From NCBI GenBank assembly GCA_013139635.1, contig WTAL01000224.1, positions 1-39,573 on the forward strand: a stretch of 39,573 nucleotides of DNA, written 5' to 3'. A program made the position numbers and the translations under genes. Each line of letters begins with the position of its first letter. The first letter of the stretch is position 1. Below, piece by piece: positions 9,880 through 37,251 of the stretch. The notes beneath the pieces were generated by a model. It was not told the origin of the DNA. It made no database searches and saw only the letters and a program-made list of their open reading frames with translations. This DNA is from Paracoccaceae bacterium (GTDB taxonomy: Bacteria > Pseudomonadota > Alphaproteobacteria > Rhodobacterales > Rhodobacteraceae).

Positions 9880-10413
9880 TTAGCGCATACGGCGCACAAC
9901 CGGCTTATCGGTGTCTGTCATATTTTGGGTGTGATCCACGAGGTGGCTAACATTCAGCGTGCTTTTGCGTTTTGCGCTCTTGCGTGCAGGGGTGCGTTTG
10001 CTGGCCTTGGCAATGCGCGTGTGGAAAAACAGGAAGGGGATTAAGCCAAAAAGCAGGCTGGCCACACCGCTGCCCCACATGCCCAAAAACGTATCTAACC
10101 GTAAAATGCGGGGGTTATCAGGGCTATACCTGATCACGACTTTTTGCCCGAGATAAGCAGCCTCTGTGCCAAGAGCGCTTTCGGGCGTGGCGAGCTGTTT
10201 TTGATCGGCGAAGTCAATAAAAGCAATAAGAGGTGTTCTTGCAGGGGCAAACGCTTCTTCTGTCGGTTCGAAATCAAGAATAATGCCTTGGGCGAAAAAA
10301 GAGGCATCTTTAAAGATAGCGGTGGAAACCAGCTTGTAGCCACCAAGCAGGGTGGCAGCAAATGCTAACAAGCGCAAACTGCGCAGCACAAATGAGGGAC
10401 GTTTGGTGGCCAT
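9880..10413 (-). CDS. DUF3592-like membrane protein (second copy)
   Basis: 177 residues with the same layout as its downstream neighbour: N-terminal helix (about 11-30), beta domain, the motif RYSPDNPRILRLDTF near 104-118, a second helix and a basic C-terminal tail (RTPARKSAKRKS). The shared YxPxNPxxxRxD motif supports a common origin, though overall identity appears low. Function is unknown. Same strand, 36 nt upstream of the other copy, so probably one transcription unit. Confidence 0.7.
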   Translation of the reverse strand: MATKRPSFVLRSLRLLAFAATLLGGYKLVSTAIFKDASFFAQGIILDFEPTEEAFAPARTPLIAFIDFADQKQLATPESALGTEAAYLGQKVVIRYSPDNPRILRLDTFLGMWGSGVASLLFGLIPFLFFHTRIAKASKRTPARKSAKRKSTLNVSHLVDHTQNMTDTDKPVVRRMR

Positions 10414-26300: not shown

Positions 26301-26429
26301 CTTTTGCTCCTTTTTTAATCTGAAATTGAGGCTAACCCCAGAAATATGACAATGCCAAGCAAGAAAGCGTGACCAAGCCCGAGTTTTGACTTGCAACGCA
26401 ATTTAGAGAACGCTAAGAACGCGCCAAAT

Positions 26430-26505
26430 GCCCCTATAGCTCAGCTGGTAGAGCAACTGATTTGTAATCAGTAGGTCCGCGGTTCGAGTCCGTGTGGGGG
26501 CACCA
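26430..26505 (+). tRNA. tRNA-Thr (anticodon UGU)
   Basis: 76-nt cloverleaf. Acceptor GCCCCTA pairs with TGGGGGC, discriminator A, and CCA is encoded. The D arm is GCTCAGCTGGTAGAGC; the anticodon stem ACTGA/TCAGT encloses TTTGTAA, giving anticodon TGT; the T arm contains GGTTCGAGTCC. It reads ACA threonine codons. Its 3' end is the attachment site of the downstream island. Confidence 0.97.
26487..26505 (+). other. Left attachment site (attL) within tRNA-Thr
   Basis: The tRNA 3' end AGTCCGTGTGGGGGCACCA is repeated imperfectly at 36829-36845 (two G fewer). An integrase gene begins 165 bp downstream. This is the usual layout of P4-type island insertion into the tRNA 3' end, where the copy next to the tRNA keeps the gene intact. 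Confidence 0.75.
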
Positions 26506-26605
26506 CAATCACCTTTTATATTGTCCAGTGACATCCGATATAGCCTTGTGTATAAGGGTATTTATGAAGTTGTTTGTCCAGCCTGATTTTATACTATCCA
26601 GCGAA

Positions 26606-26667
26606 ATACCCCCAGATTGGGGGTATCGCTGGGGGTATTCTGAAATCACCAAAAATACGATACCCCC
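26606..26667. repeat. Four ATACCCCC/GGGGGTAT octamers upstream of the integrase
   Basis: ATACCCCC at 26606-26613 and 26660-26667; GGGGGTAT at 26619-26626 and 26631-26638. The first pair makes a palindrome, and copies 2 and 3 are direct repeats 12 bp apart. GCTGGGGGTAT and ATACCCCCAGC form an 11-bp inverted repeat ending at the integrase start codon. Probable integrase arm sites and operator. Confidence 0.7.
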
Positions 26668-26670
26668 AGC

Positions 26671-27858
26671 ATGACTTTAAGCGACGTAAAGATTCGGAGC
26701 CTGAAGCCCAAAACCAAGACGTATAAAGTCTCTGATTTTGACGGGCTGTTTGTGGCGGTAAATCCCAACGGCTCAAAGCTGTGGCGCTTCAAGTATCGCT
26801 TGGACGGAAAAGAAAAGTTGCTTTCGATTGGGGCTTATCCAGCGGTTAGCCTTTTACAAGCGAGACAAGCGCGCGATGCGGCGCGGGCTGAGCTTGCAAC
26901 AGGGGAAGACCCGAGCGAACGCAAGCAGGAAGAAAAGCGGATCAGGCGCGAAAGCCAAGGGCACACCTTTGCCAAGGTGGGCGCGGCTTTTCTGGATAAG
27001 CAACGCAAAGAGGGTAAATCATCGGCGACGCTTTCCAAGACCGAATACCACTTGAAACTGGCCAACAAGGATTTCGGCAAGAAGCCGATATCCGAGATCA
27101 CCTCGCCAATGGTGCTGCGCTGCCTGCGCAAAGTGGAGGCTAAGGGGAATTATGAAACCGCCCACCGCTTGCGCTCCCGCATTGGCTCGATCTTTCGCTA
27201 TGCGGTGGCAAGCGGCATTGCCGAGCATGACCCCACCTACGCCCTGCGGGATGCCCTGATCCGACCGACAGTCAAACACCGCGCCGCTATCACCGAGCCA
27301 AAAGCGCTGGGCGCGTTGCTGGTGGCGATTGATGGCTTTGACGGGCAAGCGACCACGCGGCTTGCGCTGCATTTGATGGCGATCCTTGCCCAGCGGCCCG
27401 GCGAATTGCGCCACGCGCGGTGGGATGAGTTTGATTTTAAGGAGGCAGTTTGGTCGATCCCTGCCGAAAAGATGAAAATGCGCAAGCCACATAATGTGCC
27501 ATTACCTGCGCAAGCTTTGGCGCTGTTGGAAGAGTTACGCCCAATCACCGGCGCGGGCGAACTGCTGTTCCCAAGTTTGCGCTCGTGGCAGCGCCCAATG
27601 AGTGAAAACACACTAAACGCGGCCTTGCGGCGAATGGGCTATTCCGGCGATGAAATGACCGCCCACGGCTTCAGGGCCAGCTTTTCCACTTTGGCCAATG
27701 AAAGCGGGCTGTGGAACCCTGACGCTATAGAGCGCGCGCTCGCCCATGTGGAGAAAAACGAGGTGCGACGGGCTTATGCGCGGGGGGAGCATTGGGAGGA
27801 GCGTGTGAGGCTTGCGGATTGGTGGGCTGGATTTTTGAGTGAGATGCGGGCAGAGTAA
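26671..27858 (+). CDS. P4-type tyrosine integrase
   Basis: 395-residue site-specific recombinase. An N-terminal arm-binding domain (DUF4102, about 1-95, with SDFDGLFVAVNPNGSKLWRF at 21-40 and LSIGAYPAVSLLQAR at 51-65) is followed by a core-binding domain (about 100-185) and the catalytic domain. Catalytic residues Arg242 (RPGELRHARW), His332 and Arg335 (AHGFRASFST), His359 (LAHVEKN) and Tyr369 (RRAYARG) are all present, so it should be active. It lies next to tRNA-Thr and probably integrates and excises the island. Its start codon abuts the octamer cluster, which suggests that integrase binding represses its own gene. Confidence 0.96.
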   Translation: MTLSDVKIRSLKPKTKTYKVSDFDGLFVAVNPNGSKLWRFKYRLDGKEKLLSIGAYPAVSLLQARQARDAARAELATGEDPSERKQEEKRIRRESQGHTFAKVGAAFLDKQRKEGKSSATLSKTEYHLKLANKDFGKKPISEITSPMVLRCLRKVEAKGNYETAHRLRSRIGSIFRYAVASGIAEHDPTYALRDALIRPTVKHRAAITEPKALGALLVAIDGFDGQATTRLALHLMAILAQRPGELRHARWDEFDFKEAVWSIPAEKMKMRKPHNVPLPAQALALLEELRPITGAGELLFPSLRSWQRPMSENTLNAALRRMGYSGDEMTAHGFRASFSTLANESGLWNPDAIERALAHVEKNEVRRAYARGEHWEERVRLADWWAGFLSEMRAE

Positions 27859-27885
27859 TCTGGAGCCATCTAAAGAAAGTCAGAT

Positions 27886-28773
27886 ATGCAAGCCAACCGT
27901 GGTAAAATTGACGCCGACGTTCTTGAAACGTTACTCAAAAAGAAATTCGGTAATTTGTTTGGCTGGACGCTGCCGGTTACCCTCAAAACGATTGGCCCCT
28001 ATTCGCCAGAACCATTTCTTTCATTTGAAGTTCGACGCAAACAATTAGTCGACGAGTGCAGGTCTTTTCTTGAAGGCATTCCGACGCCTGATTTAGCCAT
28101 TTTATTTCATCCAGAATTTGACGACCCAGATGATAAAAGGTCGGCTTGGGATAAGCTCTTTAAGTCCGAAATTTCCGACCTATCCATACAGGAACCGGTT
28201 TGGATAGCAGGTGGTTTTGGTCATCCGGAATACATCGCCGATACCGACTACTGGTCAAAAATGATGGCGTTTGGTTCTGACGAATTATTGCTTTTATCTG
28301 TTGGCGTTGACCCTAATAAAACAGATGTTTTGGGCATATATAACCTAGGGAAATATGGAAGTGAAAATGTTTGGCAAGTTATTAACTACCTATCGAACCG
28401 CGACAAATTACTTGGTCGTCATTTTTATCCCAATGGCGCGCGTGGCATCAAAATAAAGCCGGTTGAATTTTTGGAATTTGTAGATTTTGTAAACCTGCCA
28501 GTGGAAGCAGGTTTCTTGAACGCCCTACGGAAAATACACCAGCCATCAAAACAAAATGAGACACTGGACCCCCGCGAGAAAACTTCCTTACTTAACCTAA
28601 TCGCAGTTATGGCGAATGACGCTTATCGCTACGACCCAAGTAAACGCTCGGCGGTGCCTAGTGAAATTTACGACGCTGCCAAAATGAACCGCGTCAATAT
28701 AAGTAAAGAAACGATTCGTAATCACTTAAAGAATGCCGTTGGGCCACTAACCGAACCATGGCTAACTAAATAG
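27886..28773 (+). CDS. Unknown island protein, 295 residues
   Basis: Starts 25 nt after the integrase stop. No family recognised for the N-terminal two thirds, a soluble mixed alpha/beta sequence rich in aromatic residues with many acidic residues (AILFHPEFDDPDDKRSAWDK at about 71-90, WIAGGFGHPEYIADTDYW). The C-terminal about 70 residues, REKTSLLNLIAVMANDAYRY followed by SKETIRNHLKNA, resemble the C-terminal module of many unannotated mobile-element proteins and look like a helical nucleic-acid-binding or oligomerisation unit. Codon use is more AT-rich than in the flanking core genes, consistent with transfer. A defence or element-control role is a guess from position only. Confidence 0.75.
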   Translation: MQANRGKIDADVLETLLKKKFGNLFGWTLPVTLKTIGPYSPEPFLSFEVRRKQLVDECRSFLEGIPTPDLAILFHPEFDDPDDKRSAWDKLFKSEISDLSIQEPVWIAGGFGHPEYIADTDYWSKMMAFGSDELLLLSVGVDPNKTDVLGIYNLGKYGSENVWQVINYLSNRDKLLGRHFYPNGARGIKIKPVEFLEFVDFVNLPVEAGFLNALRKIHQPSKQNETLDPREKTSLLNLIAVMANDAYRYDPSKRSAVPSEIYDAAKMNRVNISKETIRNHLKNAVGPLTEPWLTK

Positions 28774-28788
28774 CGGCTAATCGTTTAA

Positions 28789-28840
28789 CGAATAGCGGTG
28801 AGAAACCGACGTTATATTGTTGGGAATTCAGCGCTATTCG
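28789..28840. repeat. Spaced inverted repeat before the AlpA gene
   Basis: CGAATAGCG (28789-28797) and CGCTATTCG (28832-28840) are perfect inverted 9-mers 34 nt apart, in the spacer between the unknown gene and the AlpA-type gene. They may be an operator or a weak terminator. Confidence 0.35.
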
Positions 28841-28925
28841 CGCGCAAAATCCCTACCATGCTTCACTCACATATATCAAACTGTAATGGATGACCCCAAT
28901 CGAAATGATATGAGGTAAACTTGCA

Positions 28926-29132
28926 ATGGACTATCCAGATTTCCCCAAAACCGGCCTTGTCCGCCTGTCTCAAATACTTGCCCCTAACGGCCCGATTCCA
29001 GTTGCCAAATCAACGTGGTGGCAGGGGGTTAAGGATGGACGGTTTCCCAAGCCTCAAAAGCTTGGCCCCCGCACAACAGTTTGGCGGGTGGAGGACATAC
29101 GCGCATTATTTGAGGGCAGCGCTAATGACTAG
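28926..29132 (+). CDS. AlpA-family excisionase/regulator
   Basis: 68-residue winged helix-turn-helix protein. The pattern GLVRLSQILAPNGPIPVAKS (10-29), TWWQGVKDGRFPKPQKLGPRTTVW (30-53) and VEDIRALFEG is the AlpA/MerR-like DNA-binding fold. In phages and P4-like islands AlpA proteins activate integrase genes or act as recombination directionality factors. It overlaps the next gene by 8 nt. Confidence 0.88.
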   Translation: MDYPDFPKTGLVRLSQILAPNGPIPVAKSTWWQGVKDGRFPKPQKLGPRTTVWRVEDIRALFEGSAND

Positions 29133-29550
29133 GCGTATCAACCCACGCAAAGCCAAAATCCACCAAAGCTACACAGTTGAGGAGGCTGCCCTGTTATTCG
29201 GGCGATCCATTCCGACCGTGCGAAGCTGGATCAAGAAAGGGTTGCCGATAATGCGCGGACAAATCCCGCACTTAATTCTTGGCGCGGAACTGCGTGAGTA
29301 TCTCGACAAGACCCAAAGATCAAGCAAGAGGCCGCTTGCCCCAAATCAGCTTTATTGCTTGAAATGCCGGAAGCCACAGGCTCCCTATGGCGGGCTTGTG
29401 GACTATGTCCCCATATCAGCCAAAAGAGGCCGTCTAGAGGGGCTTTGCCCCACCTGCGAGGGCATCTGCAACCGCTTCGCGTCCCGCCGCCAACTCCCCC
29501 AATTTGCCGAAATATTCGACCTCACCATTCGACCGCATAAGAGCGCCTAA
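29125..29550 (+). CDS. Helix-turn-helix protein with C-terminal zinc ribbon
   Basis: 141 residues from ATG 29125, inside the end of the AlpA gene. The N-terminal MerR-like HTH reads YTVEEAALLFGRSIPTVRSW (16-35) followed by IKKGLPIM; the C-terminal part has paired cysteines YCLKCRKPQ and LCPTCEG, a four-cysteine zinc ribbon. Its close coupling to AlpA and the second recombinase suggests a DNA-binding accessory factor of recombination or element control. Its stop lies 52 nt before the recombinase start. Confidence 0.75.
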   Translation: MTRRINPRKAKIHQSYTVEEAALLFGRSIPTVRSWIKKGLPIMRGQIPHLILGAELREYLDKTQRSSKRPLAPNQLYCLKCRKPQAPYGGLVDYVPISAKRGRLEGLCPTCEGICNRFASRRQLPQFAEIFDLTIRPHKSA

Positions 29551-29553
29551 TGG

Positions 29554-29561
29554 ATACCCCC
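29554..29561 (+). repeat. Single ATACCCCC octamer before the second recombinase
   Basis: Same octamer as the clusters at 26606-26667 and 36752-36771, located 42 bp before ATG 29603 and just after the HTH/zinc-ribbon stop. One chance occurrence is possible. Confidence 0.45.
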
Positions 29562-29602
29562 AACCCCTTCCTAAACTATCACTTATGAAAGGACGCCCAA
29601 CC

Positions 29603-30658
29603 ATGCGAAAATATTGCGAAGAAAACGAGCGGATCAAGCGGCGCTACCTACGTTATATCAAAGAGGCGAAAAGGCAGGATGTAAAGTCGGTGGATAAGGC
29701 CGCCGCCGCCATTTTCCGCTTTGAGGAAAGCACTGGATTTAAGCCTTTCAAGAAGTTTCACATCGAGCAGGCAATTGCCTTTAAGCGCAAGCTGGAGGCC
29801 GCCAAGAATGAGCGCACCGGCAAGCCGCTGAGTAAAGCCACGGTTGACGCCACCTTGCGCCTAGTCAAAGCCTTCATCCATTGGTTGGCGGGGCAGTCGG
29901 GGTATAAAAGTCGGATCAGCTATGACGATGCGGAATATTTCAACAATAGCGCCAAGGATGCCCGCATCGCCCACGCCCAGCGCGAAGCTCCGTTTCCAAC
30001 AATGGCGCAGCTTGCCCACGCCTTTGCTGCAATGCCGAATGAAACCCAAATCCAGCGCCGCGACAAAGCCCTGTTTGCCTTTCTGGTGCTCACTGGCGCG
30101 CGGGTTCAAGCCACGGCCTCCTTGCGCCTCAAACGGATAGACCTTGTGGAGGGCTGCGTTTATCAAGATGCTCGCGATGTGCAAACCAAAGGCGCAAAAA
30201 CCTTTCAAACCTACTTTCTGCCGGTGGACCCCGCCTATCTGGCTTGCTTCACTGATTGGGTGAATTACCTGCGCAATGGCCTGCTGTTTGGCCATGAAGA
30301 TGCGCTGTTCTCCAAGCCCAAAATGGGTTGCTCAGATGAGGGAGGCTTTGCTGTCATTGGTCTGTCGCGCGACAACTGGTCAAACGGCACAAAAATTCGC
30401 GACATTATAAAAACCGCTTTCACTACATCCGGCCTCCCAGCCTTTGGCCCGCATAGCTTTCGCAAAACGCTTGTAAAATTCGGCGTGGAAACCTGCCAAA
30501 CGCCTGAGGTCTTCAAGGCGTGGTCGCTCAACATGGGCCATGATAGCGTGGTTACGACACTTTCCGCTTATTGCCCGATTTCAATCAACCGCCAAAAGGA
30601 GCTAATCCAAGGAATGGCCCCAAACCCAACTCTCCAAAAAGTTGCGGAATCGCGTTGA
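29603..30658 (+). CDS. Second tyrosine recombinase
   Basis: 351 residues from ATG 29603 (AAAGGA 9 nt upstream; in-frame starts at 29504 and 29585 are less likely). It has a core-binding N-terminal half with VDATLRLVKAFIHWLAGQSG and a complete catalytic set: Arg167 (LTGARVQATASL), His284 and Arg287 (GPHSFRKTLV), His313 (MGHDSVVTTL) and Tyr323 (SAYCPI). It lacks the DUF4102 arm domain and is not closely like the first integrase. It is placed after AlpA and HTH genes and directly before hsdM. It may act in integration, in resolution of element circles or in DNA inversion; no invertible cassette is visible next to it. Confidence 0.9.
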   Translation: MRKYCEENERIKRRYLRYIKEAKRQDVKSVDKAAAAIFRFEESTGFKPFKKFHIEQAIAFKRKLEAAKNERTGKPLSKATVDATLRLVKAFIHWLAGQSGYKSRISYDDAEYFNNSAKDARIAHAQREAPFPTMAQLAHAFAAMPNETQIQRRDKALFAFLVLTGARVQATASLRLKRIDLVEGCVYQDARDVQTKGAKTFQTYFLPVDPAYLACFTDWVNYLRNGLLFGHEDALFSKPKMGCSDEGGFAVIGLSRDNWSNGTKIRDIIKTAFTTSGLPAFGPHSFRKTLVKFGVETCQTPEVFKAWSLNMGHDSVVTTLSAYCPISINRQKELIQGMAPNPTLQKVAESR

Positions 30659-30682
30659 CTTGTCGGTGGCCCGCTCTATTCA

Positions 30683-30700
30683 TTGAAGCGTAACCTTCAA
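30683..30700 (+). promoter_or_regulatory. Inverted repeat at the hsdM ribosome site
   Basis: TTGAAG (30683-30688) and CTTCAA (30695-30700) with a 6-nt spacer lie directly before the ribosome site AAAGGA (30699-30704). Possible operator or RNA hairpin limiting hsdM translation. Confidence 0.35.
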
Positions 30701-30714
30701 AGGATCGGCCCAAT

Positions 30715-32280
30715 ATGTCAAAATCTCCCTCCGAAACCCGCTCATCCGACCTAGATTTTGCCGCTGATCTGTTTAAAGCCGCTGACAAAATGCGGGGCGC
30801 GCTGGAGCCTTCGGAGTATAAGCACGTTGCCCTCTGGCTTATTTTCCTAAAATATATTTCTGAGGCTTTCAGTGCCCTGCACGATAAGCTTGTGGCAGAC
30901 GAATTCGCAGACCCCGAAGACCCTGAAGAATACCTTGCGGAAAGCGTGTTTTGGGTGCCGGAAAAATCCCGCTGGCAATACCTGCAAGACAATGCCCGCT
31001 CGGAAAGCATCGGCAAAATCATTGATGACGCGATGGAGGCCATCGAGGCCATTCCGACCAATGAAAGCCTCAAGGGGGTGCTGCCCAAAAACTATGCCCG
31101 CCCAACGCTTGATAAAACCATGCTTGGTGAGCTGGTAGACCTGTTTTCCAACATCAAACTGCATGATGATAACGACCGCGCGCGCGACCTGCTGGGGCGG
31201 GTCTATGAATATTTCATCTCGGGTTTTGCGGGGGCCGAGGGCAAGCGGGGCGGCGAGTTTTTCACCCCGCGCTCGGTTGTGCGCACGCTTGTTGAAATGC
31301 TGGAGCCTTACAAAGGCCGCGTTTATGACCCTTGTTGCGGCTCGGGCGGCATGTTTGTGCAGTCTGAAAAGTTCATCCAAAGCCACGGCGGGCGGCCTGA
31401 TGATATCGCGGTTTACGGGCAGGAGATTAACCACACCACATGGCGGCTGGCCAAGATGAACCTTGCCGTTCACGGCATTGATGCTGACATCCGCTGGAAC
31501 TCCCAAGGCAGCTTTCATAAAGACGAACTGACCGAGGTTAAGGCCGATTTCATCCTTGCCAACCCGCCGTTTAATATCTCCGATTGGGGCGGGGAAAAGC
31601 TGGTGGAGGATGCGCGCTGGGCTTACGGGGTGCCCCCCAAGGGCAACGCCAACTTTGCATGGCTTCAGCATATCATTCACCACTTGGCCCCGCGCGGCAC
31701 GGCGGCTGTGGTGCTGGCCAATGGCTCTATGTCGAGCATGACCAGCGGCGAGGGCGAGATCAGAAAGCAGATGGTTGAGGGCGACCGCGTGGATTGCATG
31801 ATCGCCATGCCGGGGCAGTTGTTTTACTCCACCCAAATTCCGGTGTGCCTTTGGATTTTGGCACGAGACAAAAGCGCCAATGGCCACCGTGACAGGCGCG
31901 GCGAAACCCTGTTTATTGACGCGCGAAATTTGGGCTTTATGGCAGACCGCGTGCGGCGTGAATTTACCGATGCGGACATCGCGCAGATATCCGAAACCTA
32001 CCACCGCTGGCGCTCCCAGCCCGAGGCACTGGAGGCGCGCGGGCTGGAGGCCTACGAGGACGTAGCAGGCTTTTGCAAATCCGCTGACTTGGAGCTGATC
32101 CGAAAATATGACCACGTCCTGACCCCGGGCCGCTATGTAGGTGCAGCAGAAGTGGAGGATGACGGCGTGCCGTTTGAGGAGAAGTTCGTGGCGCTGCGGG
32201 AAAGGTTAACGAAACAAATTTCTGATGCCTTGGAGCTATCAGAAACAGTTCAAAAGCTTTTGGGAACCGTAGTAAAATGA
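30715..32280 (+). CDS. hsdM: Type I restriction-modification methyltransferase subunit HsdM
   Basis: 521-residue N6-adenine methyltransferase that, with HsdS, modifies and recognises the target. The N-terminal HsdM helical domain (about 10-145) is followed by the catalytic domain: SAM motif [12 protein letters not shown] (204-214) and catalytic motif IV NPPF (283-286). Length and the sequence [15 protein letters not shown] match the type IC family (EcoR124I-like). Its stop overlaps hsdS by 4 nt (ATGA). Confidence 0.97.
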
Positions 32281-33572
32281 AGTTCCCTACTGCGACATTA
32301 TCAGATTTAGCCTCCTCAGAAAAAGGCTCGATTTCAATGGGCCCGTTTGGTTCTAGAATGAAAGCGGATGTTTATGTTGAAGCAGGGGTACCTGTTATAC
32401 GTGGAACGAACATTGGTAAAGGGCGAAGGTTAAAAGGCGATTGGGTTTATGTTACTAACAAATTCGCGGACGGCATTTCAAATTGTATAGTTCGCGCTGG
32501 TGACTTGGTATTCCCTCATCGCGGTTCAATTGGTGAAGTCGCAATTATTCCCAAAGGTTCAGAACGAATAGTCTTATCTTCGTCAATGATGAAAATTCGA
32601 GTCGACAATTCTAAATGTAACCCCTTGTTCCTATATTACTTCTTTAAAGCTGATATGGGGCGAAATGAAATACTCCGCTTCGGTTCGCAGGTTGGTACTC
32701 CTGGTATTGGGCAGCCGCTAACCTCACTTAGGCAATTTACAACGCCGCTGCCTGACTTAGCAATTCAAAATGAAATTGCTGTATTGCTTGCTGTCCTCGA
32801 CGACAAAATCGAGCTTAACCGCAAAATGAACGAGGTGTTGGAGGGGATGGCGCGGGCGGTTTTTCGGGATTGGTTTGTGGATTTTGGCCCGACACGTCGC
32901 AAAATGGCGGGGGAGGTGGACCCGCTCAAAATCCTCGGCGGGGCCATAGCCAGCCACCCCCAAGCCCAAAAAACTGCCGCCCTGTTTCCAGACCGCCTCG
33001 GCAAAAACGGCTTGCCGGAGGGGTGGGAGGAAAGCGATTTAGGCTCCATTTGTAAAATTTTGGATAACAAGCGGATTCCACTCAGCAAGCGAGAACGACA
33101 AAAGCGAAAAGGCCACATTCCTTATCACGGCGCTACGAGTGTAATGGATCATGTCGACGATTTCATATTTGATGGAATATTCCTTTTAATTGGGGAGGAT
33201 GGATCGGTTGCAAAAGAAAACGGTAACCCGTTTTCCCAATACGTTTGGGGAAAAATTTGGGTAAACAATCATGCTCATGTTTTGGAAGGCACTAAAGTAA
33301 GCACAGAAACGTTGAAATGCTTCTTTGACCAAATGAATATTTTGCCATTCATTACTGGGGCTGTTCAGCTAAAGCTCAATCAGAAGAATATGAAAAGCAT
33401 TCCATTCATTTTGGCTGACACCTCAGTGAACAAAGCTTTTGGCGAGTTCATTTCGCCTTTGTTTGCAAATATCCGATTGAATGCCGAGGAAAATCAAACC
33501 CTCGCCGAGATGCGGGATTTGTTGCTACCAAAATTAATGTCGGGTGAAATCCGGTTGCGGGAGGGGGGATGA
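32277..33572 (+). CDS. hsdS: Type I specificity subunit HsdS
   Basis: 431 residues that set the DNA target of the complex. Two target-recognition domains (about 1-165 and 235-385) alternate with conserved helical spacers: [20 protein letters not shown] with [22 protein letters not shown] (about 163-207), and near the end [25 protein letters not shown]. The recognition domains are visibly more AT-rich than the spacers, the usual mark of cassette exchange. Only one hsdS and no spare half gene is present. The bipartite target cannot be predicted from sequence alone. Confidence 0.95.
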
Positions 33573-36500
33573 TGTTTAACGAGGATATGGTTGAACAGGC
33601 GGTGCTTGAGAGCTTTAAATCTATGGGTTATGCGTTTGGAGACCCGCACCTGATCGGCCCCGATGCCCCGCAAAAGGAGCGCGGGTCGTATGGCGAGGTG
33701 CTGCTGCTGGGCCGCTTGCGCGATGCCGTGGCGCGGCTTAACCCCGCTATCCCGCCCGAGGCCCGCGAGGCGGCGATTAAGCAAATCACCGTTTCCGAAA
33801 CGCCCTCGTTAATAGAGGAAAACCGGCGTATCCATACCCTGCTAACGCGCGGGGTGGATGTGGAGTTTAAGCGCCCCGATGGCTCGCTCAAGGGCGACAA
33901 GGTATGGCTGCTGGATTTTGACAATGTGGATGCCAACGACTGGATGGTCACCAACCAATTCACCGTGGTTGAAGGCGGCCATAACCGCCGTCCTGATGTG
34001 GTGGTATTTGTAAACGGCCTGCCTTTGGCGGTGCTGGAGCTAAAGAGCGCGGCGAGTGCAACGGCCACGATTGAAGATGCCTATGCGCAGTTGCAGACCT
34101 ACAAAGAGCAGATCCCCTCGCTGTTTCGCACCAATGCGGTGCTGGTTACCTCTGATGGGCTATATGGCCGCATTGGCTCACTAACGGCAGCGGAAGACCG
34201 CTTTATGCCGTGGCGCAGTGTAACGGGGGCCGAGGGGGATTTTACGCCAAGTGGGCCGAGGGAATCTGACACGCTGATAAGGGGTGTGTTTGACAAGACG
34301 CGCTTTCTGGCGCTGATCCGCGATTTTACGGTGTTTGGCGATAAGGGCGATGGGCTGTTCAAGATTGTGGCCGGGTATCACCAGTTTTTCGGCGCACAAA
34401 AGGCGTTGGCGCGCACCTTGGAGGCGGTGGAGCCAAGTGGCGACCGCAAGATCGGGGTGATTTGGCACACGCAAGGCTCTGGCAAAAGCTTTTTGATGGC
34501 GTTTTTTGCGGGGTTAGTGGTGCGAGCCAAGGCGCTGGGCAACCCGACGGTTTTGGTTTTAACGGATCGGAATGATTTGGACGACCAGCTATACGGCACG
34601 TTTGCCATGTGCAAAGACCTGCTGCGCCAAACGCCCGAGCAGGTAACCGACCGCGAGGATTTACGCGCGCGCCTTGATCGGCAATCGGGCGGGGTGATTT
34701 TCTCGACCTTGCAGAAGTTTTCGCCTGAGAAAGGCGAGGAGCACTTTCCGGAGCTTTCAGACCGGCGCAACATTATTGTGTTGGTGGATGAGGCGCACCG
34801 TAGCCAGTATGGCTTTGATGTGAAGCTGAACAAGGGCACCGGCATTAGGCGCTATGGCTATGCGCATTATGTGCGGGAAGCCCTGCCAAATGCCTCGTTT
34901 GCGGGGTTCACCGGCACGCCGATTGATGCGGCAGATGTAAACACGCGGGCGGTGTTTGGCGATTATATCGACATTTACGACATTAGCCGCGCGGTGGAGG
35001 ATAAAGCTACCGTGCCGATCTACTATGAAAGCCGTTTGGCGCGGATAGAGCTGGACCAAGAGGCCAAGCCGGAGATTGATGCGGCGGTGGATGCGCTGTT
35101 TCAGGATGAAAGCCTTTCCGAGCAGGAAAAGGCCAAAGCAAGCTGGAGCACGGTTGAGCGACTGGTCGGGGCTGCCCCGCGCTTGGATCAGGTGGCAGCG
35201 GATATTGTAAGCCATCTTGAAGCGCGGCTGGAAGCGCTGGATGGTAAAGCTATGGCCGTGTGCATGAGCCGCCGGATTTGCGTTGATTTGTATGCACGGA
35301 TTGTTGCGCTACGCCCCGAGTGGCACTCGGAATCCGATTTGGAGGGAGCGGTAAAAGTAGTGATGACAGGCTCGGCCTCTGACCCGTTGGATTGGCAGCA
35401 ACACATTGGCAACAAAAAGCGGCGGGACGGTTTGGCTAAACGCTCGCGGGATGTGAATGACCCGCTGAAGCTGGTGATTGTGCGGGATATGTGGCTCACT
35501 GGGTTTGATGCGCCGAGTATGCACACAATGTATGTGGATAAGCCGATGCGCGGGCATGGGTTGATGCAGGCGATTGCGCGAGTGAACCGTGTGTTTAAGG
35601 ATAAGCCAGCGGGCTTGGTGGTTGATTATATCGGCATTGGGCAAAACCTGAAAAAGGCTTTGCAGAATTACACGGCGTCGGACCGGGGGCAAACGGGAAT
35701 TGATGAAGAAGAAGCCGTAGCTGTGATGGAGGAAAAGTTTGAACTGGCGCAGCAGATGTTTGCTGGCCATGATTATTCCGCCGGAGTGGACGGCAAGCCA
35801 AGTGCGCGCTTAACTGCGCTTGCAAACGCGATGGATTGGATTTTGGGCCAACAACAAGCCGCCGCCAATGCGGTTGACAGTGAAGACGGCAAAAAACAGG
35901 CACTAACAAAGTTTCAAGATTTGGTATTGGCGCTGGGCAAGGCTTTTGCACTGGCCGCCGCGAGCGATAGGGCGCGCGAGATCAAAGATGAAGTCGGGTT
36001 TTTTCAGGCCGTGCGGGCGGCGATGGTCAAGCCTACGGCAAAGGGCGGATTGAGCCAGCGGGATAAAGAAATGGCCATTGGGCAGCTAATAGATGCGGCC
36101 ATTGCCAATGCTGAAATTATCGACATTCTCGGGGCTGCTGGCTTTGACCGACCCGACATTTCCATACTCTCGGATGAGTTTTTGGCTGAAATCCAAGAAA
36201 TGGAACAAAAAAACCTTGCGCTTGAGGCGCTGAAAAAGTTGCTGAATGGCGAGATAAAAGGCCGAGCCGCTAAAAATGTTGTTGAAGCCAAGGCGTTTTC
36301 AGAAAGGCTAGAGGCTTCAATCGCCAGATACCACTCAAACGCGATTACCAGCTTGGAGATGATTCAGGAATTGATCGACCTGTCCAAGGATCTACAAGCG
36401 TCTATTTTGAGGGGAGAGGAGCTGGGCCTAAGTCCCGAGGAGTTAGCTTTTTATGATGCTCTATCAGATAATAACTCTGCCGTTGAAGTTTTGGGCAACG

Positions 36501-36709
36501 AGCAACTGCGGGTCATTGCTAATGTGCTTGTTGAACAGTTACAAAAGAACGTAACTGTTGATTGGCACCTCAAAGATAGCGCGCGGGCCAAACTGCGAAT
36601 TCTGGTGAAGCGAATATTAAAGAAGTTTGGATATCCACCAGATCTTGAAGCGAATGCTATTTCAACGGTAATTTCACAAGCCGAAATGTTGCTGCGCTGG
36701 CAGGCTTGA
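33569..36709 (+). CDS. hsdR: Type I restriction endonuclease subunit HsdR
   Basis: 1046-residue motor and nuclease subunit. The N-terminal PD-(D/E)xK nuclease has Asp143 (RPDVVVF) and Glu157/Lys159 ([10 protein letters not shown]); the helicase part has Walker [11 protein letters not shown] (GSGKS 303-307), [13 protein letters not shown] (329-342), the DEAH box 407-410 and FTGTPI; the end is the helical C-terminal domain binding HsdM/S. All are intact, so restriction should be active. Start overlaps the hsdS stop. Length fits the type IC/EcoR124I group (about 1040). Confidence 0.97.
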
Positions 36710-36751
36710 AAATGCGAAATCGGTGATTCCTCGGCGAATGGATTGAAAAGC

Positions 36752-36771
36752 GGGGGTATGATTGGGGGTAT
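36752..36771 (+). repeat. Two GGGGGTAT octamers at the right end of the island
   Basis: GGGGGTAT at 36752-36759 and 36764-36771, 12 bp apart, the same sequence, orientation and spacing as the copies at 26619 and 26631. They lie about 60-80 bp inside the proposed attR, where arm sites are expected. Confidence 0.7.
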
Positions 36772-36828: not shown

Positions 36829-36845
36829 AGTCCGTGTGGGCACCA
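36829..36845 (+). other. Right attachment site (attR)
   Basis: AGTCCGTGTGGGCACCA matches the tRNA-Thr 3' end apart from two missing G. It marks the right edge of a 10.3-kb island. The missing bases suggest that the site has drifted or that the element came with its own variant end. Confidence 0.7.
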
Positions 36846-36892: not shown

Positions 36893-36913
36893 TGGCGAGC
36901 ACATGGCGAGCAC
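36893..36913 (+). repeat. Tandem TGGCGAGCAC repeat
   Basis: TGGCGAGCAC at 36893-36902 and 36904-36913, 11 bp apart, about 50 bp beyond attR. Placement next to an attachment site suggests arm sites of another integrase, but no matching integrase is in the window. Confidence 0.4.
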
Positions 36914-37143: not shown

Positions 37144-37251
37144 TGTAACTTTTGTAACCTGTTACTTATATATGTAACCTATTGTTATTATTGTATTATA
37201 TTTACCGCTAAGGTTACAAAACAGGTTACAGCTTTTTTCCACGTGTAACCT
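37144..37251. repeat. Iteron-like TGTAACCT cluster
   Basis: TGTAACCT at 37153-37160, 37173-37180 and 37244-37251; inverse AGGTTACA at 37211-37218 and 37223-37230; near copy TGTAACTT at 37144-37151. Copies on both strands flank a very AT-rich stretch (37181-37207). The layout is like a replication origin with initiator sites or a multi-site operator. Confidence 0.55.

Follow-up and report, generated by a model that had tools for sequence, protein, structure and literature searches.

Octamers at both ends of a Paracoccaceae genomic island: comparison with relatives suggests that a few integrase residues predict the probable docking word of the enzyme

Layout of the island ends

We analyzed a contig of 39,573 nucleotides from a Paracoccaceae bacterium (accession no. 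WTAL01000224.1; "the window" refers to this whole stretch), which carries a 10-kb genomic island inserted at a tRNA-Thr gene with a tyrosine integrase gene (int) beside it. The octamer ATACCCCC occurs seven times in the window (26606+, 26619-, 26631-, 26660+, 29554+, 36752-, and 36764-), and six of these copies lie at the ends of the island. Judging from sequence comparisons, these six are very probably arm-type (P) sites belonging to the P4-type integrase that the island itself encodes, and the proposed specificity patch of the enzyme belongs to this reading. The features concerned are the following.

26430..26505, plus strand: tRNA-Thr(TGT), the attachment gene on the attL side (ARAGORN)
26487..26498, plus strand: attL core segment AGTCCGTGTGGG in the 3' part of the tRNA gene (longest exact match to the right end)
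26523..26600: four RTCCR repeats (26523, 26533, 26576, and 26596), candidate directionality-factor sites
26606..26613, plus strand: arm site A (octamer search)
26619..26626, minus strand: arm site B, forming a 12-bp pair with C (octamer and pair search)
26631..26638, minus strand: arm site C (octamer and pair search)
26660..26667, plus strand: arm site D, ending 3 bp ahead of the int ATG (octamer search)
26671..27858, plus strand: integrase P0001, 395 amino acids, with the PF13356 arm domain, PF22022, and PF00589 (Pfam)
26791..26820, plus strand: codons of residues 41 (K), 43 (R), 48 (E), and 50 (L), the proposed DNA-reading patch
36752..36759, minus strand: arm site E, forming a 12-bp pair with F (octamer and pair search)
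36764..36771, minus strand: arm site F (octamer and pair search)
36829..36840, plus strand: attR core segment AGTCCGTGTGGG, 57 bp past site F

Four octamers occupy the interval between the tRNA gene and the integrase start, in the orientations +, -, -, +, and two lie 57 bp inside attR. A direct pair with a 12-bp period is present at each end (26619/26631 and 36752/36764). The initial annotation had described this arrangement, with four copies before the integrase gene and two just inside attR, and its coordinates, orientations, and 12-bp period at both ends were all reproduced. The integrase has the domain order of the P4 type (DUF4102, IntSXT subgroup), a PF13356 arm domain followed by core-binding and catalytic domains. 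As in other elements of this type, the 3' end of a tRNA gene is the insertion site, the core is repeated, imperfectly in the right copy, at the far end, and direct 12-bp pairs flank the core on both sides, as in P4.

In 100 shuffles of the window, ATACCCCC was found 0.85 times on average and four times at most, and no shuffle had seven copies. The source genome (3.42 Mb in 271 contigs, 96.66% complete) contains 84 octamers versus 76 copies of the reversed control, so the word itself is not enriched genome-wide. The pair GGGGGTAT-N4-GGGGGTAT has two matches in the genome, both being the island ends, and its reversed control has none. At the octamer rate outside the island contig, the expectation for four copies within 62 bp is about 5e-7 per genome. 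The genome-wide count proposed in the initial annotation places the octamer at background level and the 12-bp pair at the island ends only, and the outcome that was to refute the initial reading, an octamer common throughout the genome, did not occur.

Five of the 77 octamers outside the island contig were inspected in context as possible orphan element ends (contig C127 at 11664 and 11686, C55 at 34, and C250 at 34 and 1368), and all five were rejected as they lacked the arm layout; the two copies in C127 are 22 bp apart, not 12. The first 80 bases of C55 and C250 are identical and represent a repeat in the genome. The seventh octamer of the window (29554-29561, plus strand) is located past the end of the HTH_17 open reading frame (ORF) and ahead of the likely start of a second recombinase; this copy, which the initial annotation did not list, is compatible with chance.

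The same plan is annotated in phage P4 (accession no. NC_001609), whose record lists five features named "attP arm sequence repeat." A copy in inverted orientation covers the int start, then come a direct 12-bp pair, the core, and another direct 12-bp pair; all five repeats contain TGCCCCC. P4 and the island share the inverted copy over the int start and the 12-bp direct pairs flanking the core. Pair and core are separated by 112 and 53 bp in P4 (annotated 12-mers to core), compared with 113 and 57 bp in the island (octamers to the tRNA end or core segment). The P4 word TGCCCCC differs from the island's TACCCCC at base 2 alone, and residues 41, 48, and 50 are K-E-R with TG in P4 Int and K-E-L with TA in the island integrase. 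The two proteins are 37% identical. On the int side, three sites are annotated in P4, whereas the island has four, site A being the extra one.

Arm words and spacing in related loci

Related loci were taken from genomes (the best 80 of 551 integrase loci) and from viral contigs (147 loci); the closest integrases among the best 80 were mostly from Rhodobacteraceae. A set of 155 rows comprised the window, 79 of the 80 genome loci (L030 lacked an upstream region), and 75 viral-contig loci, hand-picked out of the 147 for upstream DNA with near-copies omitted. The 146 rows with an open frame of at least 350 amino acids entered motif labeling, which gave 96 labeled loci, or 89 after removal of near-duplicates.

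The positions of the sites upstream of int are kept in many relatives, with motifs specific to each locus. The arm word varies between elements and is common within one (TACCCCCA, TGCCCCCA, GGCCCCCA, TACCAACA, and others). At least three copies of one upstream 6-mer were found in 137 of 155 rows, versus 151 of 775 shuffles. When each locus was searched with its own 6-mer outside the int region, 17 pairs occurred at 12 bp and 0 to 4 at each of the other spacings from 7 to 30 bp. A control with the 6-mers of ten other loci per locus gave 20 pairs at 12 bp, which was the largest bin of the control too, probably because many control 6-mers represent the same site shifted by one base. A search by motif class separated the two: in 87 labeled loci (692 kb), distal pairs of a locus's own class in the orientation seen in the window numbered 14 at 12 bp versus 0 to 2 at other spacings from 8 to 20 bp, and the motifs of other classes (four, or five if the own class was off the list) gave no pair at 12 bp.

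Among 80 loci examined for pairs and their surroundings, all 14 that bear a pair have a tRNA gene less than 900 bp upstream of int (in L009, the listed tRNA is 551 bp away). Except in L036, that is, in 13 of the 14, the start of the longest direct repeat shared with the upstream region is 53 to 62 bp past the pair. The lengths of these repeats (9 to 18) are not always above the null maxima (9 to 16), and the argument therefore rests on their fixed place, not on length. In 23 genomes hand-picked for TACCCC-type loci, GGGGGTA-N5-GGGGGTA was found at 19 places in 13 genomes, versus 3 for the reversed control.

One relative (L017; K-E-K, 73% identical to the window integrase) has sites of the TG, GC, AG, and GG types next to one another 5' of int, which could be a specificity change in progress.

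Covariation of integrase residues and site bases

To relate site bases to integrase residues, we calculated mutual information (MI) between the bases and the alignment columns of the 89 labeled, dereplicated integrases. By MI excess, residue 50 was the top column for bases 1 and 2 (z of 24 and 34, the next being at most 9.7 among the columns listed). Residue 48 was the top column for base 5, and residue 41 was the top column for base 6. The structure alignment did not include L016, where positions 10001-10288 hold an in-frame stop in the arm-domain reading frame of the integrase.

The first automated motif labels look wrong for three loci (L032, L170, and L171), and stricter blind labels, with CC fixed at bases 3 and 4 of the label pattern, were assigned to 136 of 254 rows. 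With these labels, residue 50 sorted with bases 1 and 2 as L with TA (43/43), T with TA (36/37), K with GG (30/30), and R with TG (15/15); other residues at this position were rare, and M was mixed. Residues 41 and 48 together sorted with bases 5 and 6 as KE with CC (82/82), AQ with AA (11/11), NQ with AA (8/10), and DR with GT (14/16). Whether residue 50 was K or R matched whether base 2 was G in 134 of 136 rows, and the best of 239 columns reached 0.735, in a comparison that splits residue 50 by the rule (K/R versus all others) and each remaining column by its commonest residue.

Independent pairs were drawn along supported branches of a rapidly built tree that excluded the arm domain. An average of 12.9 of 13 pairs were concordant for K/R50 with G at base 2, and none were opposite (median P = 0.00024). 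All 7 pairs were concordant for K50 with GG (P = 0.016), as were 8 of 9 for KE with CC (P = 0.008), the ninth being without difference.

Predictions in held-out integrases

The residue-to-base rule was fixed in writing before 120 genomes of the phylum were searched. The loci examined numbered 110 (29 from this search, a further 80 hand-chosen among its matches listed, and L266) with 108 ORFs, of which 31 had a prediction and less than 0.9 identity to the training set and formed the test set. L274, at 0.91, was omitted; it has four predicted copies. At least two predicted words were present within 188 bp in 20 of the 31 integrases, and one was present in 3. Mismatched predictions succeed in 0.13% of cases on average, and shuffled upstream regions gave an expectation of 0.005. 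In L255 (AQK), a combination that was not in the training labels, the predicted GGCCAAC occurs four times. Together with the covariation, this suggests that a few integrase residues predict the DNA word on which the enzyme would dock.

Known integrases can be set beside the rule as well. P4 Int (K-E-R, TGCCCCC) and Escherichia coli K-12 intB (QQM, TACCAAC three times) match it. K-12 intA (RRK, AGGCCCA three times) fits K50 with GG, its residues 41 and 48 being outside the rule.

Two further types were observed. QTR-type integrases (L351, L352, and L346) have TGCTTCC or its complement twice upstream, fitting R50 with TG. Integrases of the D-R-T type (24 loci, e.g., L269 and L250) have TACCGTC sites, with at least two copies in 14 of the 24.

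Structure of the arm domain

The model of the island arm domain (predicted local distance difference test score of 90.6) has strands at residues 36-44 and 47-56. Along this hairpin, residues 41, 43, 48, and 50 occupy alternating positions and can therefore share one face in the model, which may be the face turned toward the DNA. Fold matches were 3JU0 (Z = 14.7), 3JTZ (13.8), and 3RMP (13.1), with 75 to 88 residues aligned at root mean square deviations of 0.9 to 2.0. These are arm-binding domains of the HPI and HAI7 integrases and have the same fold as the island arm domain; at residues 41, 48, and 50, 3JTZ has K-E-R and 3JU0 has S-Q-L. The title of 3RMP refers to attP recognition by P4-like integrases. 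No residue code for arm sites was found in the literature searched, and base contacts may already be described for 3RMP.

Proposed mechanism and rival explanations

If the octamers are arm sites, the excised circle would carry, in order, sites E and F, the core, the RTCCR repeats, sites A to D, and int. The N-terminal PF13356 domain would bind TACCCCCA on both arms, and the catalytic domain would act at the core, which lies in the 3' end of the tRNA gene. Since a direct 12-bp pair lies on each side of the core, we propose that two adjacent integrase protomers are placed on each arm of the intasome. Specificity would come from a small patch of the two-stranded hairpin, in which residue 50 would set bases 1 and 2 (L giving TA), residues 41 and 48 would set bases 5 and 6 (K plus E giving CC), and the conserved R43 would go with the conserved CC at bases 3 and 4. 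For the family as a whole, the comparisons make it likely that PF13356 carries a modular code, with residue 50 specifying bases 1 and 2 (L or T, TA; K, GG; R, TG), residues 41 and 48 specifying bases 5 and 6 (KE, CC; AQ or NQ, AA; DR, GT), and R43 accompanying CC. Sites would then be predictable and would switch together, and co-resident islands could be prevented from cross-assembling.

The two ends could instead resemble each other by chance or through the composition of G/C runs, as the octamer contains a run of five C's and its 84 genomic copies are at background level. This has a negligible probability: the shuffles, the presence of the 12-bp pair at the two ends only, and the expectation of about 5e-7 contradict a chance origin of the end octamers, and position and spacing are kept in relatives. 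The octamers might also be operators through which another regulator controls int, the distal pair being a second operator. Candidates are at hand in the AlpA-like ORF and the HTH_17 protein encoded on the island, and the sites do crowd the int leader. However, the motif follows integrase residues 41, 48, and 50 across elements, P4 annotates a matching layout as attP arm repeats, the distal pairs keep their 53- to 62-bp distance from the core repeat in 13 of 14 loci, and the separate RTCCR repeats are better candidates for directionality-factor sites, which makes such operators highly improbable. A further possibility accepts the arm sites and attributes the correlation between residues and motif to shared ancestry of att-int cassettes and not to direct reading of bases. 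The att sites and int presumably travel as one cassette, and related integrases would share both. This explanation is unlikely, albeit less so than the operators, given the near-complete agreement of residue 50 with base 2 (even if the split favors that residue), the tree-independent pairs without an opposite case, the successful prediction for the untrained AQK combination, and the position of residues 41, 48, and 50 on adjacent strands. The proposal of the initial annotation that the octamers have the layout of integrase arm-type sites is strongly supported by the P4 attP plan, the recurrent 12-bp pairs of a locus's own motif, and the covariation of motif and residues.

Several observations weigh against the arm-site reading or the code attached to it. 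The octamer at 29554 plays no part in the model, and the right core copy, after AGTCCGTGTGGG, lacks two G's of the tRNA. No sigma-70-like promoter site was found in 26400-26800. Distal pairs were present in only 14 of 87 loci, with the downstream search extending at most about 10 kb for most. For base 5, residues 41 and 50 score high as well. A part of the family lies outside the rule, since 118 of 254 rows were left unlabeled and the pattern fixed CC; the 254 rows also include the training loci of the rule, with only the 31-integrase test set held out, and the column comparison favors residue 50 by its split. In the test set, 8 of 31 integrases had no predicted word, and 3 had a single copy. 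The prediction TGCCAAC for AQR failed in L259, which has TAGCAACA four times instead, and predicted words were also not found in L239_4, L264, L271, L293, L297, L305, and L306.

Control of int

Because the int leader contains sites B, C, and D, the integrase, if it binds them, probably limits its own expression. An exact plus-strand copy of the own word starts 7 to 20 bp ahead of the int start in 60 of 91 labeled loci, and the RTCCR repeats between the tRNA and the arm block number 2.46 versus 0.52 per 124 bp (79 loci). A promoter overlapping the arms fits a loose pattern in 4 of the 91 labeled loci, which are too few to argue from. The placement of the sites and the RTCCR repeats fit a regulation of int by the integrase and a directionality factor, as far as sequence can indicate. 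As in the autoregulated integrase of KplE1, tRNA and int are codirectional with the attL region between them. Autorepression of the island int, also suggested in the initial annotation, is plausible by homology and placement.

Comparison with other integrases

According to PMC2951348, IntS of KplE1 represses intS about 5-fold, and single arm-site mutations left repression intact, site P'1 being unjudgeable as it overlaps the -10 element; sites of the directionality factor TorI lie in the attL region. From the same source, KplE1 (CPS-53) resembles the island in having the tRNA followed by a codirectional int, with arm sites in the int promoter region. KplE1 IntS differs in the GGGTAAA repeat of its int leader and in its residues R-E-I with K43 (K-12 sequence), and so represents another specificity. 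Autorepression of P4 Int is indicated by the title of a work cited in PMC7286903.

In ICEMlSymR7A, a 502-kb integrative and conjugative element (ICE), IntS has five TGKTGGTATC arm motifs in a 283-bp attP, all reportedly required for efficient integration, and cuts its own promoter activity by about 25% (PMC11963761). Like the island, this ICE has int beside attL and arm motifs; in contrast to the TACCCCCA of the 10-kb island, its motif as given there belongs to the TACCAACA class (reverse complement), which represents the same kind of site in another specificity class. PMC8138268 describes the DUF4102 domain as marking the IntSXT subgroup, with a P4 cluster that inserts downstream of tRNA genes. 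The island is a P4-type att system with a different arm specificity and otherwise an ordinary element.

Other features of the island and its surroundings

Between the integrase gene and attR, the island encodes a candidate directionality factor, a second recombinase, and a restriction-modification cargo.

28926..29132, plus strand: AlpA-like ORF, candidate recombination directionality factor (PF05930, E = 1.2e-5)
29504-30658: second tyrosine recombinase within the island (PF00589; PHROG 1 integrase)
30715..36709, plus strand: cargo, type I restriction-modification operon
30715-32280, plus strand: HsdM
32277-33572, plus strand: HsdS
33569-36709, plus strand: HsdR

The AlpA-like ORF had no match in PHROGs, and for the second recombinase Pfam gives only PF00589, with no arm-domain match. 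An HTH_17 protein is also encoded on the island. The island contig has no PF13356 match besides the integrase, and at the five other PF13356 matches in the genome the residue sets differ from K-E-L (some aligned with gaps). When the tRNA flank was compared with plasmids, the matches were partial, lay at the tRNA end of the query sequence, and were set aside.

Immediately outside attR, GGCGAGCAC occurs at 36894 and 36905, 11 bp apart. Farther to the right (37153-37250) is an arm-like array, with TGTAACC at 37153, 37173, and 37244 and a 12-bp pair of GGTTACA at 37212/37224; the exact GGTTACA pair occurs once in the genome, with three further pairs at one mismatch. This array may be what is left of the end of another element.

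Significance

The residue-to-base code is the part of this analysis that may be new. If the PF13356 code is true, arm sites can be predicted from the integrase sequence, and the rule would let arm sites and island ends be called from sequence. It would also predict, for islands residing in the same cell, whether or not they can share an integrase. Finally, the rule would make testable how specificity changes in concert in an integrase and its five or six scattered sites.

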